Assembly: GCF_040371085.1 (NCBI RefSeq)
Contig: NZ_JAMBMT010000001.1
Span: 806,001-870,000 of the forward strand
DNA: 64,000 bases
Source of the DNA: Psychrobacter sp. AH5
GTDB lineage: Bacteria; Pseudomonadota; Gammaproteobacteria; Pseudomonadales; Moraxellaceae
Reading direction: 5' to 3'
Of this stretch, positions 11,321-50,041 are shown in pieces. Within the stretch, counting starts at the first letter, position 1. Each line of letters opens with the position of its first letter. Under the pieces are notes generated by a model, which was given only the letters and a program-made list of their open reading frames with translations, was not told where the DNA came from and ran no database searches. A program made the position numbers and the translations under genes.

Positions 11321-14300
11321 ATGCCTATCACTGCTTTGACTGATGCCTTTTATCCTATCAATGAGCGCCTATTTCCTATAAAAGCGAGCCAAAAACGTTG
11401 GCTAGCTCCCGTGCATGGCGCGGTTAGTAGCTTATGGCTTGCCAGCTTGGTTAATACTGACCTATCGAATATGGCGGACCGGCTCAAGATTATGGTGGCG
11501 CGCGATCAAAATCAGCTCAATCAGATCGAGACTGAATTAGCGTTTTGCGGAGTGGATGCTTATGTGTTTCCGGATTGGGAAACCTTGACTTATGATGAGC
11601 TGTCGCCGCATCAAGATATCGTTAGTGAACGTATTAACCTATTGACCGATATGCCAAGTACGGGTGTGCTGCTAATCTCTGTACAGACTCTTATGCAGCG
11701 TGTAGCACCGCCAAGCTGGCTGATAGGCCAGCATTTTGATTTGAGCGTTGGTGACATCTTTGATATTAATACGCAGCGTGAGCTATTGACAAAAGCAGGC
11801 TACCGAGCAGTCGAAAACGTCTTTGAGCCTGGGGAGTTTGCCGTTCGCGGTAGTATTATTGATATCTTTGCGATGGGTCAGCCTTTTCCGCTGCGTCTAG
11901 ATCTATTCGATGATGAGATCGAAACGATTCGTTTTTTTCATCCGCAAACTCAGCGTACTCTGACTGAAGATGATTTGCGAGCGATGATGTCGGGTAATGA
12001 TAGTAGCATAGGGGCTGAGTCGCTATCGCTATTACATAAATTGCCTGATATCTCAAAGCCTATTAAAGAGTTTCAAATACTCCCTGCCAAAGAGTTTCCT
12101 TTAGATGAAAGCCGTGAGACTTTTCGCACTAATTTTGCCACTATGTTTCCTAATGCTAGTAGCCGTAAGTTTGAGCTGCATAAAGACGTGATGGCGGGGA
12201 TTGCTAGTAGCGGCCTAGAGTATTATCAGCCGCTGTTCTTTGAGCTAGACGATTGGCAGCAAGAGAGTAGTTTATTTAATTATCTGCCCAGTGATGCGCT
12301 GTTTATTACTGATGAGCTTATCGGCGAGCGTCAAGTCGATTACTGGTCACAAATCCAGCGCCGCTATGAAGAGCGCCGCCATGATATCGATAAGCCAGTA
12401 CTAGCACCTGATTTATTATATTTACCAGCTAATAGCTTTAATGAGCAGCTTAATCAGTATCCGCGAGTCATTATTAGTGCCCGTGATGAGCTTGTGATTA
12501 GTAAAACTGGCGCTACAGCTGACAAAAGTAGCTCAGATAATAAAATGCAAGGGCTAGTGACCCTTAGCGCCCAACAGCCACCGCAGCTGTCGGTTAATCA
12601 TCAAAAAGCAGAGCCCTTAGCTGAGCTGTTAGCATTTTTAGAATTACAGAGTCAAACAAAAACGCCGGTATTAATAGTGGCAGAAACCGCTGGTCGCCGC
12701 GAGATTCTCATTGAGTTATTCAAAGGCAAAATAGATATCAAGGCTTATGATAATTTTAAAGATTTCTTAGCCATCGATCATAAAAATAATAATCATAATA
12801 ATTTGCCGCATGTTGGCTTAACCGTAGCGCCTATTGAGCGCGGCGTCTATGTGCCTGAGCGCTTAGTAGTCATTAGCGAGCCCCAGTTATTTGGCCGGCA
12901 AGTACTGCAAACGCGTCGTCGCCGTCAAAGCGGAGTATCAGAGGAGTTTTTGGTTAAGAGTGTTACTGAGCTGACTCAAGGCAGTCCAGTGGTGCATATT
13001 GAGCATGGTATCGGCCGCTATAATGGCCTGATTATCTTGGATGTCGGTGACGGCGAGCAAGAGTTTATTCATCTAAAATACGCTGACGATGCTAGTATTT
13101 ATGTCCCTGTGGCTAACCTGCAGATGATCAGCCGCTATAGTGGCGGCGATCCAGCCCTAGCGCCACTGCATAAGATCGGTAGCGGCAGATGGGATAAAGC
13201 GAAACAAAAGGCCTTGCAGCAAATTCATGATGTGGCCGCTGAGCTACTCAACATGCAAGCGCGCCGCGAAGCCAAAGTCGGGATACATTTCAAGATTGAA
13301 CACTCACAGTATGAGCTGTTTGCCAGCCAGTTTGCTTTTGAGGAGACGCCCGATCAGGCCAATGCTATTCATGCGGTGATGGAGGATATGCGCCAAAATC
13401 AGCCAATGGATCGTCTCATTTGCGGTGATGTCGGTTTTGGTAAAACCGAAGTGGCAATGCGTGCCGCCTTTATCGCCGTTAGCGCCGGCTACCAAGTGGC
13501 GGTACTCGTGCCAACGACTTTGCTCGCCGGCCAGCATGAGGACAATTTCCGTGACCGCTTCGCTGATTGGCCGGTGCGTATTGAAACGCTATCGCGCTTT
13601 GGCGGCAAAAAGCATCAAGACACGGTGCTAGCTGACTTGGCGGCAGGTAAAGTAGATATTGTCATCGGTACTCATAAATTACTGCAAAAAGATGTAAAAT
13701 TCTCTAATCTTGGCCTAATGATCGTTGATGAAGAGCACCGTTTTGGCGTACGCCATAAAGAGCGTATCAAAGCCATTCAGACCGATGTTGATAGCTTATC
13801 AATGACCGCTACGCCTATTCCGCGGACTCTCAATATGGCGTTATCGGGTATGCGTGATATGTCGATTATCGCCACCCCGCCAGCGCGTCGCCTAGCCATT
13901 AAAACCTTTGTCATGCAAAAAACTGATTCGCTAATGAAAGAGGCGATTTTACGTGAGCTGTTACGCGGCGGACAAGTGTATCTGCTGCACAATGATGTCG
14001 CTAGTATCGAGCGTATGGCAGAAACCATCCGCGAGCTGGTACCTGAGGCTCGCGTAGGGGTAGCGCATGGACAGATGCAAGAGCGGCAACTTGAGCAAAT
14101 CATGCAGCAGTTTTATCACAAAAAGTTCAACGTATTGGTTTGCTCAACCATTATTGAGACTGGTATCGATGTGCCTAATGCCAATACTATTATTATTGAG
14201 CGTGCCGATAAGTTTGGCCTAGCGCAGCTGCATCAATTACGTGGCCGCGTGGGTCGTAGTCATCATCAGGCCTATTGCTATCTACTAGTGCCCTCGTTAA

Positions 14301-39119: not shown

Positions 39120-39921
39120 GTGGTGTTCTAAAAAGTATGCTGGCATCAGACGTAGCCATAATTGACATAAAAGAACACCAGATCGAATACTTTAAAGTGA
39201 TTATCAAGCTTTTTTGAGAAGCAACAAGTCTTTCTAACCGCTCGACGCAATCGGTGTCTAAGACGACAGTTATTGCCTTCAATCCCTATCGTATGCTGTT
39301 TGCCAATTCGTTTGTTATCACTTTTAAAGGCGGTTATAAAACTGTCCCAGTTGTCCATACTGATAGAGCCATAGCTGACTGTAAGCTGCTTTAAACGTGT
39401 TCTTAACTTCTTAGCCGTTTTTAGGTCACGTTTGCCCCAGACATAAGCGACAATCTCATTAGTAGCACGGTCATAAGCGTAGATGAGCCAGACTTTACGC
39501 TTCTTGCGATACACGTAAGTCCAGAACTCATCAACCTCTAAGCGTTCATAATAGTGCTTCTTAGGTACAATCTTGTAAATGGATGAGCCTATGGTGCTAA
39601 GCACTTTTCCGATGCTAACCTTGGCTATAACGGCTATGTCTCTAACACCACAACCTCGGACAGTCATCAGTCGTATGAGATCTTCTATTCTAGAGTGACA
39701 GCCGTTATAGGTTACTGCATGATCGCCAATAAACTGACGTTTGCAGTCCTTACATTGGTAGTTCTGCTTGCCATAGCTTTTTATGCCATTTTTCTTTAGA
39801 CTAAGACTGTGACAGTCGGGGCAATTGATCTGTATTTGTGTCTTCATAACCTCAAATATATCATCTTGCTTCGGCTGTCACCCTTCCTTTATTACCCCAG
39901 CATACTTTTTGATACACCACC
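39119..39921 (-). mobile_element. IS1-family insertion sequence, complete (803 bp)
   Basis: The terminal inverted repeats are at 39119-39143 and 39897-39921 and agree at 22 of 25 positions, both starting GGTGGTGT and ending AAAAGTATGCTGG. Eight-bp direct repeats AAAAAATA flank it, typical of IS1. A single transposase gene fills the minus strand. It separates the SDR gene from ltrA, which would be about 40 bp apart without it. The intact ends, intact gene and perfect duplication indicate a recent insertion. Confidence 0.95.
39146..39847 (-). CDS. IS1-family transposase, single-frame type
   Basis: A 233-residue transposase in one frame, without the -1 frameshift of classic IS1 insA-insB. The N-terminal zinc finger has Cys9/Cys12 and Cys32/Cys35, followed by a helix-turn-helix (VRDIAVIAKVSIGKVLSTI) and the catalytic part with LEVDEFWTYV, YAYDRATNEIVAYVWG, SMDNWDSF and IEGNNCRLRHRLRRAVRKT, the DDE/N-type signature of IS1. 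It appears intact and probably functional. Confidence 0.94.
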   Translation of the reverse strand: MKTQIQINCPDCHSLSLKKNGIKSYGKQNYQCKDCKRQFIGDHAVTYNGCHSRIEDLIRLMTVRGCGVRDIAVIAKVSIGKVLSTIGSSIYKIVPKKHYYERLEVDEFWTYVYRKKRKVWLIYAYDRATNEIVAYVWGKRDLKTAKKLRTRLKQLTVSYGSISMDNWDSFITAFKSDNKRIGKQHTIGIEGNNCRLRHRLRRAVRKTCCFSKKLDNHFKVFDLVFFYVNYGYV

Positions 39922-41892: not shown

Positions 41893-42684
41893 ATGAAAAA
41901 CGTGATGTTTATAGGTTACGGCACTATGGCTAGAAAAGTTCATGAGATGCTACCCGATAACGTGGTACTCAAGGCCATAGTAGCTAGTCCTAGAAGTGCT
42001 GACAAGATAAGGGCTGAGCTTGGGCAGTCTATAGAAGTGGTGACCTCAGTCGCCGAGTTAACCGTTAAGCCCGATCTAGCGGTTGAGATGGCAGGGCAAG
42101 ATGGCCTAAAACAACACGCGCTTGATATTTTACAACAAGGTATAGCGCTAGGTATTGTCTCGGTAGGAGCTTTTACCGATGAAAAATTCGCTATGTCATT
42201 ACATGATACAGCAAAAAAAAATAAGGTAAAAATCCATATTTTAGCAGGGGCTATCGCCGGCATTGACGGTATTAATGCGGCAAGCTTAGCCGGGTTAGAA
42301 GATGTGACTTATCAAGGTCGTAAAAAACCCGCCAGTTGGCAAGGCAGTTATGCCGATGAGCTGATTGATTATGATAATTTAGTGCAGCCTGAGGTTTTCT
42401 TTACCGGCAGTGCTAGAGAAGCAGCGGCACTCTTTCCGGATAACTCCAACGTAGCAGCGACTATTGCTTTAGCTGGCGTAGGATTAGATAAAACCAAAGT
42501 GGAATTAATCGTTGATCCAACCCTTGAGCATAATATTCATCATATTAACGCCAATGGGGTGTTCGGCAAGCTGGAGATTAGTATGACTGGTCTACCATTG
42601 GCCGAAAACCCTAAAACTTCTAGTCTGGCAGCCTTTAGTGCCTTGCGGTTATGTTGTCAGCTTGCTGAGGTTTATCAGCTATAA
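41893..42684 (+). CDS. nadX: L-aspartate dehydrogenase (NadX type)
   Basis: NAD(P)-dependent enzyme linking L-aspartate and oxaloacetate plus ammonia through iminosuccinate, 263 residues. The Rossmann start MFIGYGTMARKV, AGAIAGIDGINAA near residue 118, and the catalytic His region EHNIHHINANGVFGKLEI near 213 identify the family. AGGGA lies 7-8 nt before the ATG. It points toward the bhc genes and shares a terminator zone with bhcD. Its intermediate, iminosuccinate, is the substrate of BhcD, so a part in the beta-hydroxyaspartate cycle is plausible; supply for NAD synthesis is the alternative. Confidence 0.87.
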   Translation: MKNVMFIGYGTMARKVHEMLPDNVVLKAIVASPRSADKIRAELGQSIEVVTSVAELTVKPDLAVEMAGQDGLKQHALDILQQGIALGIVSVGAFTDEKFAMSLHDTAKKNKVKIHILAGAIAGIDGINAASLAGLEDVTYQGRKKPASWQGSYADELIDYDNLVQPEVFFTGSAREAAALFPDNSNVAATIALAGVGLDKTKVELIVDPTLEHNIHHINANGVFGKLEISMTGLPLAENPKTSSLAAFSALRLCCQLAEVYQL

Positions 42685-42763: not shown

Positions 42764-42827
42764 CTCTAAGTCATTATAGCTCTGAGTCATTATAGCTCTG
42801 AGTCATTATAGCTCTGAGTCATTATAG
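42764..42827. repeat. Four 16-bp tandem repeats at the bhcD stop codon
   Basis: Units begin at 42764, 42780, 42796 and 42812. The last three are identical (CTCTGAGTCATTATAG); the first differs at one base, and a decayed fifth unit may precede it. The bhcD TAA (42822-42824) lies in the fourth unit. On the minus strand each unit contains TATAAT. There are no spacers, so it is not a CRISPR array. Confidence 0.92.
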
Positions 42828-43820
42828 CGAAACGTGCTGAGCTTCGCCTTTTTCAACGGCAAGTCTAGCGGCAGCAGAAGCGACAGCTAAATCTTGTAAG
42901 CCAACCCCAGTTCCATCAAATAAAGTGATCTCCTCCTTATGGCTACGGCCCGGATGATCGCCATTAATAACGGCTCCAATCGGTGTGATATCGGACTCTT
43001 GAATACTACCTGCTTTGATTGCGTGCTGGGCTTCACCAAGGCTGATCGATTGTGCGATTTCATCAGTAAAGAGCGTCGCTGAGGCTATCAAAGCTGCGTC
43101 GACTTCTTGCTTACCGACGGTATCAGTGCCCATGCAAGCGATATGTGTGCCCGGCTTGATCCACTCTTTCATAAGTAATGGCTCAAACGCTGAGGTGATA
43201 GTGATGATGACATCGGCCTGCTTGCAAAGCTCTTCGCGATCTACTGATTCAAACGGCACGCCTAATTCTTCAGCGACGGCTTGTAGGTTTTTTAGGCGAT
43301 CTTTATTGCCATTCCAAGCGACCACTTTTTCAAAACTGCGCTGCTCAAGTGCGGCGCGTAGCTGAAAGGTAGACTGATGACCGGCGCCAACCATACCTAG
43401 CACCTTGCTGTCCGCGCGGGCTAGATGGGCGATTGAGACGGCAGAGGCGGCAGCAGTACGCACAGCGGTTAAATAGTTGCCACCGACAAGCGCACGTAAT
43501 TTGCCATTATCAGGATTGAATAAGAAAATGGTGGATTGATGGTTGGTTAGGCCTTTCGCTTCGTTGCCAGGCCAATAGCCGCCAGATTTTAGGCCTAGAG
43601 ATTTGCCGGCACGATCAAAGCCAGATTTAAAGCCATATAAGGCATCGGCATAACCAATCGCCTCGCGAATCACTGGGAAGTTATAGGCATCACCGTTTGC
43701 CATAGCAGCAAAGACATTCTCAACGGCGCTAAAAGCAGAGTCACGATCGATTACGGCTTTGCAAGCCTCTTCTGAGACGATAATTAAACCTTCATTATTA
43801 GCATTGTTTGCATCACTCAT
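42822..43820 (-). CDS. bhcD: Iminosuccinate reductase BhcD (ornithine cyclodeaminase / mu-crystallin family)
   Basis: A 332-residue NAD(P)-binding protein of the ornithine cyclodeaminase family, with LRALVGGNYLTAVRTAAASAVSIAHLAR and the Rossmann segment LGMVGAGHQSTFQLRAAL. In the beta-hydroxyaspartate cycle of Paracoccus denitrificans this family supplies BhcD, which reduces iminosuccinate to L-aspartate. The call rests on cluster order: it follows aldolase, dehydratase and aminotransferase genes in the bhcABCD order. Alone it would be called only an ornithine cyclodeaminase-like protein. AAGGAATTTATA precedes the ATG. Confidence 0.82.
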   Translation of the reverse strand: MSDANNANNEGLIIVSEEACKAVIDRDSAFSAVENVFAAMANGDAYNFPVIREAIGYADALYGFKSGFDRAGKSLGLKSGGYWPGNEAKGLTNHQSTIFLFNPDNGKLRALVGGNYLTAVRTAAASAVSIAHLARADSKVLGMVGAGHQSTFQLRAALEQRSFEKVVAWNGNKDRLKNLQAVAEELGVPFESVDREELCKQADVIITITSAFEPLLMKEWIKPGTHIACMGTDTVGKQEVDAALIASATLFTDEIAQSISLGEAQHAIKAGSIQESDITPIGAVINGDHPGRSHKEEITLFDGTGVGLQDLAVASAAARLAVEKGEAQHVSL

Positions 43821-43890
43821 TATAAATTCCTTTTTATACTTTTTAATTTAGCTCTCTTAACGGATATCTCTAAAATACTACTAGTGAAAT

Positions 43891-43926
43891 AAAAAAAGGC
43901 TATTGTAGGCTAAAGCTACAACAGCC
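43891..43926 (-). terminator. Terminator-like hairpin between bhcC and bhcD
   Basis: Read on the minus strand, an 11-bp stem (43926-43916 with 43908-43898, one wobble) with a 7-nt loop is followed by seven T (43897-43891). This is a full intrinsic terminator inside the presumed bhcABCD operon, so bhcD may receive less transcription or have its own promoter. Confidence 0.75.
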
Positions 43927-43964
43927 CCTTTTAAATCAAACGAATAATAGTAAGCTTGTCTCTC

Positions 43965-45116
43965 TTAGTACATTTTACCGCGAGCAGATACCGGCCATAC
44001 TTTCTCAACTTTACCGTTACGCACACCAACATAGAAGTCATGCACGTTACAAGTAGGGTCGCAATGACCGGGTACAAGTTTTAATTTTTCGTTAATCTTT
44101 AGTACTGCGTCAGGATCGCTAACCACGCCATGCTCATCGGAGCATTTGACATATTCAACATCATCACGGCCATAGATGAAGGGTAGGCCGCTGTCCACGG
44201 ATTGTGCTTTTAGACCAGCATCAACGATAGCTTTGTCCGGTTTTGCATGACTCATAACCGAGGTTAGAATAAATAGTGCATTCTCCCACTCGCCTGCATC
44301 GATACGGTTGCCATCTTCATCCAAAATACGCCCGTAGTCGGCGTCCATAAAGGCGTAAGAGCCGCACTGTAATTCATTAAAAACCCCTGAATTACTCTCA
44401 AAATAGTAACTACCAGTACCGCCGCCTGAGACAAATTCTGGTTTTAGACCAATCTGCTCAAGAGCGTCGATCGCTTCTTGCACCTGATCGATAGCGACTT
44501 GAGTTTTGGCTTTACGGTCGCTGTAGCTGTCCATATGCTGCATCGCGCCTTGATAGGCTTGGATGCCTGTGAAGTTTAAGTTGTCGGCTGCATCAATGGC
44601 TTTGGCAATCTCAACTACCGCCTCAGTGGTGGTAACTCCGCAGCGTCCTGCGCCGCAATCAATCTCGATATAACAATTAAGCTCAGTACCTGCTTCGGTT
44701 GCCGCAGCCGATAGCTCAGCGACGTTATCAACATCATCGACACAAACGGTAATTTTTGAACCCATTTTAGGTAAGTTAGCCAAACGCTTAATTTTGGCAG
44801 GCTCGCGTACTTGGTTTGAGACCAAGACGTCTTTGATGCCGCCGCGTACAAACACTTCAGCTTCAGAGACTTTTTGACAGCAGACGCCTACTGAACCGCC
44901 AAGCTCTTGTTGCAACTTTTGTACGTCCACAGATTTATGCATTTTACCGTGGCTACGATGACGCATATTATGATCTTTTGCGTAGTCGCCCATTTTTTTG
45001 ATGTTGCGCTCAAGGGCGTCTAAATCAAGGATTAGGCAAGGGGTTTGGATATCCGCTTCATCCATACCCACTTCAGCCGGGACGTTAAAACCAACTTCTA
45101 ATTCTTCAGTAATCAT
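43965..45116 (-). CDS. bhcC: beta-Hydroxyaspartate aldolase BhcC (D-threonine aldolase-like, DSD1 family)
   Basis: Fold-type III PLP enzyme, 383 residues. RHRSHGKMHKSVDVQ holds the PLP Lys (Lys58), VSGGGTGSYYF the phosphate loop, and GHCDPTCNVHDFY near residue 353 the divalent-metal His/Cys. D-threonine aldolase relatives split beta-hydroxy amino acids into glycine and an aldehyde. In the bhc pathway BhcC joins glycine and glyoxylate to (2R,3S)-beta-hydroxyaspartate. ATG 45116 has GGAGCTTGAAT upstream and is preferred over the TTG at 45122. Confidence 0.85.
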   Translation of the reverse strand: MITEELEVGFNVPAEVGMDEADIQTPCLILDLDALERNIKKMGDYAKDHNMRHRSHGKMHKSVDVQKLQQELGGSVGVCCQKVSEAEVFVRGGIKDVLVSNQVREPAKIKRLANLPKMGSKITVCVDDVDNVAELSAAATEAGTELNCYIEIDCGAGRCGVTTTEAVVEIAKAIDAADNLNFTGIQAYQGAMQHMDSYSDRKAKTQVAIDQVQEAIDALEQIGLKPEFVSGGGTGSYYFESNSGVFNELQCGSYAFMDADYGRILDEDGNRIDAGEWENALFILTSVMSHAKPDKAIVDAGLKAQSVDSGLPFIYGRDDVEYVKCSDEHGVVSDPDAVLKINEKLKLVPGHCDPTCNVHDFYVGVRNGKVEKVWPVSARGKMY

Positions 45117-45191
45117 ATTCAAGCTCCATTTGTTTGATTGATTGTAATGGTTTAATTCATGCGACTTAATTAATAGTAATTAAGGTTATAA

Positions 45192-45233
45192 AGGTATTTA
45201 AACTTGCGCCTAAGCTGCGCTTAGTTAATACCT
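45192..45233. other. Structured element between bhcB and bhcC
   Basis: Outer arms AGGTATT/AATACCT enclose an inner stem CTAAGC/GCTTAG with a 3-nt loop. There is no T tract, so it is more likely a mRNA stability or processing structure than a terminator. Confidence 0.45.
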
Positions 45234-45263
45234 AATTTGGGACTGAGTATCTAGCTACCAAAG

Positions 45264-46244
45264 TTAATTCCAAGGCAGCTTATCAAGATCGACGTTACCA
45301 CCAGTAATAATAACGCCCACTTTTTTATCGGCAAAAACGTCTTTGTTTTTTAGGATGACAGCAAGGGGCACCGCGCAGCTTGGCTCAATGATAATCTTCA
45401 TATGCGTCCAAGTTAGCTTCATCGCCTCAACGATCTCTTCTTCGGTTGCGGTCAAGATATCGGTCACGTAGTTACTGACAAAGTGCCAAGTCAAATCTTT
45501 GAGCGGTACTTTTAGGCCATCAGCGATCGTATCTGGGGCGTCATCAGCGATAATGTGACCGGCATGTAATGAGCGCGCGGCATCATCTGCGTTTACTGGC
45601 TCTGCGGCATAGATTTTGACGTCTGGTGCTAGGTTTGATAGCGTCAAACAAGTGCCCGATATCATACCGCCGCCGCCAATAGGAGCGACGACCATGTCAG
45701 GTTTTACGCCGCGCTCTTGCATCTGCTCTAAGAACTCGCGTGAACAAGTGGCCTGACCAGCGATAACGCGAGGGTCATTGTAAGGATGAACAAAGTCGCC
45801 ACCAGTTTCAGCTTGCACTTTTGCAAAGACTTCTTCGCGAGAAGTGGTTGAGGGCTGACACTCAGTGATGATACCGCCGTAGCCGCGCACTGCTGCTTTT
45901 TTGGCTTCGGGCGCGCTGTATGGCATCACTACATTGCAAGGGACGCCGCGCTGTCCGGCAGCATAGGATAAAGACAGCGCATGGTTGCCTGAGCTATGAG
46001 TGCAAACGCCGTTTTTAGCTTCTTCATCAGAGAGACCAAAGACCGCGTTTGAGGCACCGCGAACTTTAAAGGCGCCGGCTTTTTGAAAGTTTTCACACTT
46101 AAAAAACATCTCGCAGCCTGCCATCTCATTCAAAAAACTTGAGGTCATAACGGGGGTGCGATGGATATAAGGCTTAATGCGCTCATGCGCTGCTAACATA
46201 TCCTCAAGCGTTGGAATGGTTAGCCCATTTTCATTAGTTATCAT
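45264..46244 (-). CDS. bhcB: beta-Hydroxyaspartate dehydratase BhcB (threonine dehydratase / serine racemase-like)
   Basis: Fold-type II PLP enzyme, 326 residues. KCENFQKAGAFKVRGA carries the PLP Lys60, SSGNHALSL the Asn loop, and PIGGGGMISG (near 184) the phosphate Gly loop. Relatives include serine racemase and threo-3-hydroxyaspartate ammonia-lyase. BhcB removes water from beta-hydroxyaspartate to give iminosuccinate. AAAGGAATA precedes ATG 46244. A metal site as in serine racemase is likely (EPVNADDA). It is 63 bp after bhcA. Confidence 0.85.
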   Translation of the reverse strand: MITNENGLTIPTLEDMLAAHERIKPYIHRTPVMTSSFLNEMAGCEMFFKCENFQKAGAFKVRGASNAVFGLSDEEAKNGVCTHSSGNHALSLSYAAGQRGVPCNVVMPYSAPEAKKAAVRGYGGIITECQPSTTSREEVFAKVQAETGGDFVHPYNDPRVIAGQATCSREFLEQMQERGVKPDMVVAPIGGGGMISGTCLTLSNLAPDVKIYAAEPVNADDAARSLHAGHIIADDAPDTIADGLKVPLKDLTWHFVSNYVTDILTATEEEIVEAMKLTWTHMKIIIEPSCAVPLAVILKNKDVFADKKVGVIITGGNVDLDKLPWN

Positions 46245-46309
46245 CAAAAATATTCCTTTATTTTTTATTTAGAAAGGTCAGTTAATAGCTTTTATCAGAA
46301 GGCTATAAA

Positions 46310-47473
46310 CTAATGGTTGCGAAAATATTCTTGGGCGGCAGTGACGCCTTGACCCAGTTTGATTGGGTAGTCCAAATCAACCATTGCCATCTCAAGGGTA
46401 GCTAGTCCAGCCAGAACCATCACCTCAGTCAATGAGCCCAAATGCCCAATTCTGAACGCTTTGCCGTTCATCTCACCCAAACCCACACCGAAAGAGATGC
46501 CGTATTTGTTAAAAGCATGATTGGTCAGATCATTACTATCAAAACCTTCAGGAACGTATATCGCGCTTACGGTTTGAGAGTATAGATCCGGTGATACTGC
46601 ACATAGCTTAAAACCCCAGCCATTCACCGCTTGACGCACGCCTTCGGCTAAACGGTAATGACGCGCATAGACATTGTCCAAGCCTTCTTCAAACAGCATA
46701 TCAAGACTGGCTTTCATACCATAAATCAGGTTTAGCGGCGGGGTATAAGGAAAGCCGCCATTGGCATTGGCTTTGAGCATGTCACGAAAGTCAAAATAGG
46801 TACGCGGTAGTTTTGCTTGCTCCATAGCGGCTAGCGCTTTTGGACTTACTGCTAATATCGCCATGCCTGTGGCTAGCATAAAGCCTTTTTGCGAGCCAGC
46901 TACCGCGATATCTACACCCCATTCATCCATTTTAAAGGGGACACAAGCGATTGAGCTGACCCCATCGACGAATAAGAGAGCGGGATGATTAGCGTTATCC
47001 ATAGCGCTACGCACCGCGCCAATGTCACTTAATACACCCGTTGCAGTCTCATTATGCGTGACCATCAAAGCTTTGATTTCGTGATTGGTATCTGCGGCTA
47101 GGATCTCTTGAAACTTATCAGCAGGCGCGCCTTCACCCCAAGCACATTCAATCACTTGTACATCCAGGCCATGGCGCTGACACATATCGATCCAGCGATG
47201 CGAGAACATTCCATAGCGAGCAATGAGCACTTTATCGCCAGGGGATAAGGTGTTGCTGATAGCCGCTTCCCAGCCGCCTGTGCCACTAGAGGTGAACAAA
47301 AGCACTTCACCCTCAATGGTACCAAACACTTTTTTGACGTCGTTGAGTACGGGTAAAAAGGTGTTAGAAAAATCAGGAGCGCGGTGATCTTGAGTTGGCA
47401 CGTTCATCGCGTGACGTAGTCTTTCTGGGATATTGGTGGGACCAGGAATAAAAATAGGGTTTTGTAGAGACAT
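46310..47473 (-). CDS. bhcA: Aspartate-glyoxylate aminotransferase BhcA (class V)
   Basis: Class V PLP aminotransferase, 387 residues, of the serine-glyoxylate / alanine-glyoxylate type. IFIPGPTNIPERLRHAM opens it; SSGTGGWEAA (residues 62-71) and AGSQKGFML with PLP Lys196 are clear. In the cycle BhcA transfers the amino group of aspartate to glyoxylate, giving oxaloacetate and glycine. The frame opens at 47536, but ATG 47473 (MSLQNPIFIPG) follows AAGGACGTCAATC and is the start. It is first in the presumed operon. If the context is misleading it would be a serine-glyoxylate transaminase. Confidence 0.86.
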   Translation of the reverse strand: MSLQNPIFIPGPTNIPERLRHAMNVPTQDHRAPDFSNTFLPVLNDVKKVFGTIEGEVLLFTSSGTGGWEAAISNTLSPGDKVLIARYGMFSHRWIDMCQRHGLDVQVIECAWGEGAPADKFQEILAADTNHEIKALMVTHNETATGVLSDIGAVRSAMDNANHPALLFVDGVSSIACVPFKMDEWGVDIAVAGSQKGFMLATGMAILAVSPKALAAMEQAKLPRTYFDFRDMLKANANGGFPYTPPLNLIYGMKASLDMLFEEGLDNVYARHYRLAEGVRQAVNGWGFKLCAVSPDLYSQTVSAIYVPEGFDSNDLTNHAFNKYGISFGVGLGEMNGKAFRIGHLGSLTEVMVLAGLATLEMAMVDLDYPIKLGQGVTAAQEYFRNH

Positions 47474-48358
47474 GATTGACGTCCTTGTAAATGTGTATAA
47501 GGTGACACAGTAATGGTTGTATAGGCAGGGTTTCATGCGAATTTAATGCAAGAGTCTTCCTGACTCATACAGTTTGGTTTTTATGTTTTTCGGATTTAAA
47601 AACTAGCCATGTCCAAAGAAAGGAGTTGCAGGTGATTGGTCACTTTACTACTTACTGCGTTCTTTTTTATGGTGATCTTGCGGTAAAGGTTTTTGCGAAG
47701 AATGAACTAAGAGGTTTCGTTGAAAAAGTGTAGATACTCATCAACGTTTTAAAATATAGCACTAAAGACAAGTTGTAACAAGGTGTTTTTTAAATAAGCT
47801 TTGTACTATACTATTCTCGGCTGTCACAATAGCTAGACTAGCCCATAAATAGACATTAGTCCAGCGGTTATCTTTAATTTTATTAGAAATAATTCATCAT
47901 TGCTTCCTCTTGTGTCTAGAGTCGATTTTGTCTTATGCTATCGCTATTGTCGATGGCTAAGTAGTCTTATTCAAATTAGCGCTATTACTGGCTGTTTTTT
48001 AACCGCTTCTGCTTTGAATTCTAAATGTTGCTTCTACGTTTTTAGTGATACTCAATTCTTTACCGTGTTATTAATTTATCCTATTTACTACTACTGTTTT
48101 TTTAGCAGTGCTTGATACTTAAATATTTTAAAAAATTACTCTGCTAAAAGCAGGTGTTATCAATCAAGCTATTTATAGCTAATATTGGCTACTTATAAAA
48201 TACTTTTATGAGTGTTAGCTTATTATTATATTGTTTTGAGCGGTCTTATAAAAACCAGATGAAAAATAAAGTTAAGTCATATTTATCATCTAATAAAAAT
48301 TTTGAACTCCCGATTTTAACTATTTTCTCTCTTCATCCTTTAACAAGAAGATTTTATT
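47474..48358. other. 885-bp control region between divergent bhcA and maeA
   Basis: No gene of normal size is supported. It is AT-rich. A 5-bp dyad GAGTC/GACTC lies near 47545-47563, upstream of bhcA. A 33-codon GTG frame at 47632-47733 has AAAGGAG (47618-47624) in front, but its reality is doubtful. No bhcR (IclR-family) gene is here, so the regulator of the bhc genes must lie elsewhere. Confidence 0.4.
47632..47733 (+). CDS. Doubtful 33-codon open frame with a good ribosome-binding site
   Basis: GTG 47632 to TAG 47731-47733, with AAAGGAG 7 nt upstream. The peptide (VIGHFTTYCVLFYGDL...) resembles nothing I know. It could be a small protein, a leader peptide or chance. Confidence 0.15.
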   Translation: MIGHFTTYCVLFYGDLAVKVFAKNELRGFVEKV

Positions 48359-50041
48359 ATGTCAAACAAACGTCCGTTATACATCCCTTTTGCTGGGCCT
48401 ATATTGTTAGAAACTTCCTTATTAAATAAGGGTAGCGCGTTTTCATCAGAAGAGCGTGATAGCTTTAATTTAACTGGTTTATTACCGCATAATATTGAAA
48501 CCATTGAAGAGCAGTCCTTGCGCGCTTATCATCAGCTTTGCTCATTTGATAATGATATGGATAAGCATATTTATTTGCGTAATATACAAGATACTAATGA
48601 AACGCTATTTCATCATTTAATTGAGCAGCATATTGAAGAAGTTATGCCGCTTATTTATACCCCAACTGTGGGACAAGCTTGTGAAAAGTTTTCGCAAATT
48701 TATCGGCGTAAACGTGGTTTATTTATCTCTTATCCTGAGCGTCATAAAATCGATGACATGCTACAAAACGCCACCAAACAAAAAGTAAAAGTGATTGTGG
48801 TGACCGACGGTGAACGTATTTTAGGCTTAGGCGATCAAGGTATTGGCGGCATGGGGATACCAATTGGTAAACTAGCTTTATATACCGCTTGTGGTGGTAT
48901 TAGTCCCGCTTATTGCCTACCGATATTGTTAGATGTTGGCACTAATAATCAACAACTGCTTGATGATCCTATGTATATGGGCTGGAGAAATCCACGTATC
49001 TCAGGCGATGAGTACAATGAATTTGTAGAGTTATTTATTCAAGCGGTTAAACGTCGCTGGCCTGAGGTGTTGTTACAATTTGAAGATTTTGCTCAAGAAA
49101 ACGCCACCCCGTTATTAAATAAATATCGTGATGAGCTGTGCTGTTTCAACGATGACATTCAAGGTACTGCCGCAGTTTCGGTAGGTACTTTGATTGCAGC
49201 TTGCTTAAATAAAGGCGAAAAGCTTAGCCAACAAAATATAGCTTTTTTGGGGGCAGGATCGGCGGGCTGCGGTATCGCTGAGCATATTGTTCGTCAAATG
49301 CAGCGTGAAGGATTGTCCGAGGAGCAAGCGCGCAGTCAGGTATTTATGGTGGATCGCTATGGCCTCTTCACCGATAGCATGACAGAGCTGCAAGACTTCC
49401 AAGCGCCGCTGGTACAAAAACAGGCCAATCTTGAGCACTGGGATCATAGTGAGCCGCTCGGTTTAGCGCAAGTGGTTAAACAGGGCAAAATCACGGTATT
49501 ATTTGGCGTTAGCGGCCAAAAAGGGCTGTTTACTCAAGAGCTTATCGAATCTTTATGTGCTAATACTGAGCATCCCATCGTTCTGCCATTGTCAAATCCA
49601 ACCTCTCGTGTTGAAGCTACTCCGCAAGAGGTGACTAGCTGGAGTCATGGTAAAGCAATTATCGCTACCGGTAGTCCCTTTCCTTATACCACTTATGAGG
49701 GTCAGACTTTTGAGGTGTCTCAGTGTAATAACAGCTACATCTTTCCAGGTATTGGCCTAGGGGTTTTGGCGGCGCGAGCGAGGGGTATCAGCGACAATAT
49801 GCTTATGGCCGCAAGCCAAGCGCTGGCCGACATCTCAATGGAATATGATAAAGCGCCCGGTGCTATATTGCCGCCGATCAAGGTCATCAGACAGATCAGT
49901 GAAAAGATAGCTTATGCCGTAGCTCGACAAGCGGTTGAAGATAAACTGGCGTTACCTGTCACCGCCGAGAATCTACAACGCCGACTAAAATCCAATTTTT
50001 GGTTGCCAGAATATCGTAATTATCGTCGTACTTCTTTTTAG
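48359..50041 (+). CDS. maeA: NAD-dependent malic enzyme
   Basis: Oxidative decarboxylation of malate to pyruvate, 560 residues, the length of E. coli MaeA (SfcA). [20 protein letters not shown] (Tyr near 101), the catalytic Lys in [14 protein letters not shown], metal-binding EDFAQENA and [16 protein letters not shown], and the NAD fold [15 protein letters not shown] are all present. It is divergent from bhcA. It may draw C4 acids made by the bhc cycle back to pyruvate. A second, NADP-type malic enzyme is encoded at 61544. Confidence 0.95.

Follow-up and report, generated by a model that had tools for sequence, protein, structure and literature searches.

A probable beta-hydroxyaspartate cycle cluster of Psychrobacter with a conserved non-coding leader, and no bhcR, beside bhcA

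Enzymes, relatives and distribution of the bhc cluster

The window analysed here is a 64,000-nucleotide (nt) stretch of the Psychrobacter sp. AH5 genome (contig NZ_JAMBMT010000001.1, positions 806,001 to 870,000). On its minus strand, at 42822-47473, it carries four consecutive genes, bhcA-bhcB-bhcC-bhcD, which, judging from the sequences, almost certainly encode the complete beta-hydroxyaspartate cycle (BHAC). All four open reading frames (ORFs) are intact, and the outer coordinates proposed in the first-pass annotation, which was made from the bare sequence, are right. In this cycle, BhcA transaminates glyoxylate with aspartate as the amino donor, yielding glycine and oxaloacetate, BhcC condenses glycine with a second glyoxylate, BhcB dehydrates the BhcC product to iminosuccinate, and BhcD reduces iminosuccinate to aspartate, the net outcome being one oxaloacetate from two glyoxylate with no loss of CO2. 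The chemistry is outlined in PMC11323563, where the BHAC is called the dominant route for glycolate among Alpha- and Gammaproteobacteria.

Each of the four proteins scores above the equivalog cut-off that NCBIfam sets for the corresponding Bhc family: the predicted L-aspartate--glyoxylate aminotransferase BhcA (46310-47473, minus strand; 387 amino acids; NF045640, 712 bits, cut-off 650), the beta-hydroxyaspartate dehydratase BhcB (45264-46244, minus strand; NF045641, 578 bits, cut-off 550), the 3-hydroxy-D-aspartate aldolase BhcC (43965-45116, minus strand; NF045642, 743 bits, cut-off 690) and the iminosuccinate reductase BhcD (42822-43820, minus strand; NF045643, 579 bits, cut-off 500). Among the matches listed (for BhcB, 25 of 44 families), all other NCBIfam equivalogs fall below their own cut-offs. 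On the strength of the Bhc equivalog cut-offs, we reject the possibility that members of other families have come to lie side by side here by chance. Among solved structures, BhcD and BhcC best match an iminosuccinate reductase (6rqa, 408 bits) and a D-3-hydroxyaspartate aldolase (6qkb, 707 bits), respectively; the best PDB matches of BhcA and BhcB are labelled serine--glyoxylate aminotransferase and probable serine racemase, respectively, in line with the superfamily names that the first-pass annotation expected. Its further expectation that routine annotation would scatter the four genes under such names is largely unsupported, given that an NCBIfam equivalog exists for each of them. Likewise, of 40 listed plasmid records, the majority print 'BhcC', with older names or nothing on a few. 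The pathway itself is already known, and current annotation models name the four enzymes.

Three of the enzymes contain recognizable pyridoxal phosphate (PLP) lysines, presumably catalytic. By motif position, these are residues 196, 61 and 60 of BhcA, BhcB and BhcC when counted from the mechanically called starts. For bhcB and bhcC these starts are TTG codons (46247 and 45122; ORFs 45264-46247 and 43965-45122); counted from the in-frame ATGs, which lie one codon further in for bhcB and two for bhcC, the lysines become Lys196, Lys60 and Lys58, exactly as first numbered. For bhcA, the ATG at 47473 is preceded by a good ribosome-binding site, and the mechanical ORF (46310-47536) is longer. Among Psychrobacter loci, the median pairwise ratio of nonsynonymous to synonymous substitution rates (dN/dS) is 0.027-0.050 for the four genes, no internal stops are present in the copies compared (17 of bhcA and 19 each of bhcB, bhcC and bhcD), and the gene order recurs among Psychrobacter genomes. 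Because of the low dN/dS, the lack of internal stops and the recurring order, the cluster is more than a chance assemblage.

The BHAC cluster of Paracoccus denitrificans is bhcRABCD, and a plasmid record of this organism carries the same four enzymes in the same order, as the first-pass annotation had stated; the Psychrobacter proteins are 65%, 71%, 81% and 59% identical to its BhcA, BhcB, BhcC and BhcD, respectively. A total of 550 plasmid records contained relatives of BhcC, with an identity of at least 60% in 119, and the commonest genus names were mostly alphaproteobacterial. In a phylogeny of joined BhcB-C-D sequences from 45 loci (31 of 75 loci from outside Psychrobacter, 13 of 20 Psychrobacter genomes with bhcC and the gammaproteobacterium G101), the 13 Psychrobacter loci form one clade with a support of 1.0, with G028 at its base. 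This clade is nested within a larger one holding Marinobacterium, G101 and some alphaproteobacterial loci, so that the Psychrobacter genes fall among other bhc clusters. The nearest relatives in the tree are the complete bhcABCD clusters of Marinobacterium (L080 and L122) and of G101 (L055), with low supports of 0.29 and 0.66 beside the Psychrobacter stem. The 75 outside loci derive from the best 80 of 554 BhcC relatives, a sample biased towards similarity. One of them, L107, is an 11-kb contig titled Spirulina subsalsa, a cyanobacterium, with bhcB and bhcC relatives 71% and 81% identical, and is possibly a contamination. The four equivalog models, the matches to 6rqa and 6qkb, the identity to P. 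denitrificans and the tree together bear out the first reading of the locus as a BHAC cluster, and Psychrobacter names are attached to the loci whose BhcC is 90-95% identical, which fits the type of organism then proposed. As for the open-access literature, outside which most subscription journals lie, we found no paper on the hydroxyaspartate cycle in Psychrobacter.

Within the genus, BhcC exceeds its cut-off in 15 of 72 genomes in one search and in 20 of 105 in a wider one; the cluster is therefore patchily distributed. It may also vary within a species: the sole other genome of the same species examined (G138, 77% complete) has no bhcC match. Full-length bhcA exceeds its cut-off in 12 of the 15 bhcC genomes. 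In G050 the gene is split across contigs, in G025 a remnant of it is left (L043:8067-8208) and in G028 it was not found (L044:7750-8370), and the latter two genomes retain intact bhcBCD, with the leader described below kept ahead of the gap. A working cycle that dispenses with BhcA was considered for G025 and G028, in which the dN/dS of bhcBCD is low, but such pairwise values mostly reflect the time before the loss of bhcA. Loci with bhcBCD and no bhcA match exist outside the genus too, for instance L095, L116 and L139. In G028, bhcBCD lies between inverted 923-nt copies that are 99% complementary (L044:1683-2605 and 12064-12986) and contain IS630-type transposase genes, an arrangement resembling a composite transposon. 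Five further genomes, reached through the leader, all carry bhcABCD.

A conserved leader and no regulator beside bhcA

BhcR is needed as an activator for growth of P. denitrificans on glycolate and glyoxylate, according to PMC11323563, which is also the only open-access item that turned up for BhcR and glyoxylate in Gammaproteobacteria. The P. denitrificans cluster has a divergent IclR-family gene ahead of bhcA, whereas the Psychrobacter clusters have none beside bhcA and a conserved leader instead. Among the 75 outside loci (L078-L152), 67 with a bhcA start were used, and an IclR-family gene lies close to bhcA in every one, divergent and within 1.5 kb in 66 of them and in another orientation in L079; the eight loci lacking a bhcA start (L092, L095, L107, L108, L112, L116, L139 and L151) yielded no IclR match. 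By contrast, in Psychrobacter no IclR gene lies next to bhcA at any of the 17 loci with the full gene, or on the G050 contig upstream of bhcA. Most of the outside IclR proteins are 43-57% identical to that of G101, and two from Marinobacterium are 30-32% identical to it. Unlike in Psychrobacter, the IclR gene adjoins bhcA in the Marinobacterium and G101 clusters, which are closest in the tree, and these gave no match to the leader model at E-values up to 5. The AH5 genome contains three IclR-family matches, and because the best match to the G101 protein is only 25% identical, no bhcR orthologue is apparent. In G042, a 24% identical IclR gene is located about 5 kb beyond bhcD, away from bhcA.

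Ahead of bhcA, Psychrobacter genomes have a non-coding leader of about 200 nt. In an alignment of 12 loci, a long conserved block is present in 11, even where the genes further upstream differ. A covariance model built from 13 sequences, R1, describes its core (47549-47690, minus strand; 155 bits and E 1.8e-23 in the AH5 genome). A search of 105 genus genomes with R1, using strict filters and 30 scored candidates per genome such that weak copies may escape, gave, at an E-value of 1 or lower, one match in each of 18 genomes, every one of which belongs to the 20 that have bhcC; 13 of these are the model's own sequences, and the five new ones likewise sit at bhcABCD. No match was reported in a bhcC-negative genome or at a second place under these filters. 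The exceptional bhcC genomes are G028, whose match is weak (31 bits), and G055, where neither the leader block nor the initial 393 malic enzyme codons were found beside bhcA. The control region is new: the same enzymes, no bhcR beside them and a bhc-specific leader instead, features on which the first-pass annotation is silent.

To compare constraint, 18 Psychrobacter loci were used, that is, those other than G050 and G055. Across the 136 pairs that exclude G028, bhcBCD have a median identity of 0.55 at fourfold-degenerate sites and the leader core one of 0.864, the latter exceeding the former in all 136. The 17 comparisons that involve G028 give 0.439 and 0.574, respectively, with the leader again ahead in all 17; the leader alignment is model-fitted, which raises identity somewhat, mostly for G028. 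We conclude that the block is under selection as non-coding sequence, and we consider it very likely that the leader is functional. The idea of a small conserved ORF was set aside because relatives differ by single-base indels. The block UUACCGCAA is invariant in 14 aligned sequences and altered in G117 and G147. A long imperfect hairpin with outer pairs CCAU/AUGG is predicted in most leaders (here 47607-47672, minus strand), with covariation from one divergent sequence, as is a short GAGUC-AGGAA-GACUC hairpin. A possible sigma-70 promoter, TTGTTA-17-TATATT (47753-47781, minus strand), coincides with the upper edge of conservation; 11 such sites occur in the region versus 10.3 expected from shuffled sequences. 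The leader is probably read as RNA.

Two segments of the leader resemble binding sites of the translational regulator CsrA. The loop of the predicted short hairpin (47552-47566, minus strand), CAGGAAG, is of the type found in CsrB, and the Shine-Dalgarno region UUACAAGGACGU (47479-47490, minus strand) matches 10 of the 12 letters of the CsrA consensus obtained by systematic evolution of ligands by exponential enrichment (SELEX); both motifs are taken from PMC7652899, which gives the CsrB repeat as CAGGA(U/A/C)G and reports bridging of CsrA sites at 10-63 nt. In 16 relatives with full bhcA, the consensus score at bhcA is 10 or 11. We scanned 351 mechanically called ORFs of at least 150 amino acids from 23 Psychrobacter stretches, omitting G050 because of its split bhcA. 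The hairpin precedes 18 ORFs, the Shine-Dalgarno core 20 and both precede 16, all of which are bhcA. The pair is thus found at 16 of 17 bhcA genes, the exception being G055, and the Shine-Dalgarno core is found at all 17 and at three other ORFs. Neither the hairpin nor the core occurs in any of the 67 bhcA leaders from outside the genus. Given that the relatives are not independent, these counts indicate specificity rather than a probability. Of 17 loci in which GGA triplets were counted, 15 have exactly two in the scanned stretch, AH5 has three and G028 four. A csrA gene is present in all 105 genus genomes.

Glyoxylate supply and genomic neighbourhood

Elsewhere in the AH5 genome (L057) lies a set of glycolate oxidase genes, glcDEF. 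GlcE and GlcF exceed their cut-offs (499 versus 284 and 651 versus 333 bits), and GlcD best matches two GlcD models yet remains below the cut-offs of both (530 of 568 and 752 of 897 bits). Directly ahead of glcDEF is a gamma-glutamyltranspeptidase gene (L057:5283-7265), a relative of which is likewise placed in G002. GlcD-like proteins scoring more than 500 bits are encoded in 15 of the 72 genus genomes, including 11 of the 15 with bhcC versus 4 of the 57 without it (p=5e-7, uncorrected for kinship). Glyoxylate carboligase (Gcl) does not exceed its cut-off in any of the 72 genomes; the glycerate route is therefore probably absent. The AH5 genome encodes malate synthase G, and the isocitrate lyase model matches this genome only weakly. 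Glyoxylate in AH5 most likely comes from glycolate via GlcDEF, and growth on glycolate through the cluster is plausible, judging from the presence of glcDEF and the co-occurrence of glcD with bhcC. In the open-access literature, the only item returned for Psychrobacter with glycolate as the sole carbon source was a dehalogenase review.

The genes flanking bhc vary between Psychrobacter genomes. In AH5, a malic enzyme gene (48359-50041, plus strand) is divergent from bhcA; it is found near bhc in 13 of the 20 bhcC genomes, as a mere fragment in G055 and on the bhcD side in G067. On the other side, an aspartate dehydrogenase gene (41893-42684, plus strand; NF009828, 385 bits, cut-off 177) is convergent with bhcD. 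This enzyme presumably also forms aspartate by way of iminosuccinate, and might serve to prime the cycle. Such genes are enriched in genomes with bhcC (7 of 15 versus 4 of 57 without; p=9e-4, uncorrected for kinship). The candidate was nevertheless rejected as a general part of the cluster, given that it adjoins bhcD only in AH5 among the Psychrobacter loci compared; a similar gene also follows bhcD in the unrelated contig L151. In G068 (L054:11869-17922) and G050 (L050:1729-7708), bhcD is adjoined by pxpABC (5-oxoprolinase), a biotin-carboxylase-type gene and an NRAMP-like gene. An IS1-family transposase gene (39146-39847) lies about 3 kb from bhcD in AH5.

Candidate modes of control

That the leader is transcribed, how it folds, that CsrA binds it and in which direction it regulates are inferred from these sequences. 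In the mechanism that we propose, the bhcR gene beside bhcA would have been replaced by the conserved leader, with control exerted post-transcriptionally: CsrA would occupy both the loop of the upstream hairpin and the Shine-Dalgarno sequence, blocking translation of bhcA until it is released. The closest parallel would be the CsrA-repressed leader of glgC in Escherichia coli, which combines a site in an upstream hairpin loop with one at the Shine-Dalgarno sequence, as is predicted for the bhcA leader; the latter differs in the spacing of its sites, 59-75 nt apart, and in its further long conserved part. Among the open-access matches listed for CsrA with glycolate and glyoxylate, none deals with such control as judged by title and the beginning of the abstract. 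That CsrA-type translational control of bhcA replaces BhcR is, in our estimate, slightly short of an even bet, and we give roughly even chances to the whole explanation that combines the BHAC, glyoxylate supplied by GlcDEF and a CsrA-controlled leader without bhcR.

Several observations weigh against this proposal. The reading is motif-based, the motif was chosen after the leader had been viewed, and CRGGA(A/C/T)G was allowed since G030 and G034 carry CGGGAAG. The consensus score of 10 at bhcA is equalled by two other ORFs among the 47 in the window. The distance from GGA to GGA is 73 nt here and 59-75 nt in the 19 two-site loci, only G067 being within the range of 10-63 nt. G055 keeps the Shine-Dalgarno core despite having lost the leader core, and G025 and G028 keep the leader without an intact bhcA. 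For five leaders, the predicted folds have ordinary energies (z -0.6 to -1.9). The 13-sequence alignment contains no two-sided pair changes, and the seven that appear when G028 and five more sequences are added are all from G028, and the alignment had been made to fit the structure; two of these changes, an outer-stem C-G replaced by U-A and a G-C of the short hairpin replaced by A-U, fall in helices with conserved flanks, and the paired changes may be regarded as suggestive evidence of covariation. Furthermore, two short motifs leave the conservation of at least 140 nt unexplained, and an unlinked, diverged IclR protein is conceivable, considering the three family matches in AH5 and the 30-32% identity of the Marinobacterium proteins to that of G101.

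The last two points lead to the alternatives. The length of conservation would be explained better if the leader of the BHAC genes were a riboswitch-like cis-regulatory RNA sensing glyoxylate, glycine, aspartate or another metabolite, with the CsrA-like motifs incidental or secondary; a long conserved block with predicted hairpins immediately before the gene, seen at bhc alone, and the invariance of UUACCGCAA in 14 sequences, albeit changed in G117 and G147, are consistent with this. We consider such an RNA improbable, in view of the lack of any Rfam match above the gathering score (only chance-level matches appear at a permissive threshold), the lack of a second copy of the leader in genus genomes at E 1 or better under the strict filters, and covariation that comes from one sequence. 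Control of the BHAC genes could instead act on DNA, through operators for an unlinked transcription factor such as a diverged IclR, given that inverted repeats may be operators as well as hairpins and that AH5 encodes IclR-family proteins. The divergence of the IclR adjacent to Marinobacterium bhcA to about 30% slightly strengthens this option and lowers our estimate for the combined explanation given above. We nonetheless deem DNA-level control unlikely, as the conserved block is mostly downstream of the likely promoter, and both GGA sites fit RNA motifs from the literature and are paired at bhcA alone.

Two other explanations concern the enzymes rather than the leader. The cluster might serve another source of glyoxylate, or the degradation of hydroxyaspartate, and not growth on glycolate: glcD above 500 bits is lacking in four of the 15 bhcC genomes of the 72 (G025, G043, G050, which is 83% complete, and G055), and an intact bhcA is lacking in G025 and G028. 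With glcDEF present in AH5 itself and glcD above 500 bits in the remaining 11 of the 15, we find this quite unlikely. It is hardly credible that the genes are an ordinary serine-glyoxylate transaminase, threonine dehydratase, alanine-racemase-like protein and ornithine cyclodeaminase brought together by accident; the superfamily relationships are real, but the four Bhc cut-offs are passed, the other equivalogs listed (for BhcB, 25 of 44) fail theirs, and both the conserved order and the position in the tree contradict such an origin.

Returning to CsrA-type control, a tentative evolutionary scenario, which we hold to be somewhat less probable than not, is that on the stem of the Psychrobacter clade the operon lost its glyoxylate-responsive regulator and gained a bhc-specific RNA leader read by the global regulator CsrA, possibly with a sensing domain in the long hairpin; the enzymes would have been kept as they were, and translation would have replaced transcription as the level of control. 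The scenario is directly testable, and G055, with a bhc locus from which the leader core is gone, offers a natural control. If it is true, the control of an ecologically important pathway would have been swapped while its enzymes stayed the same.

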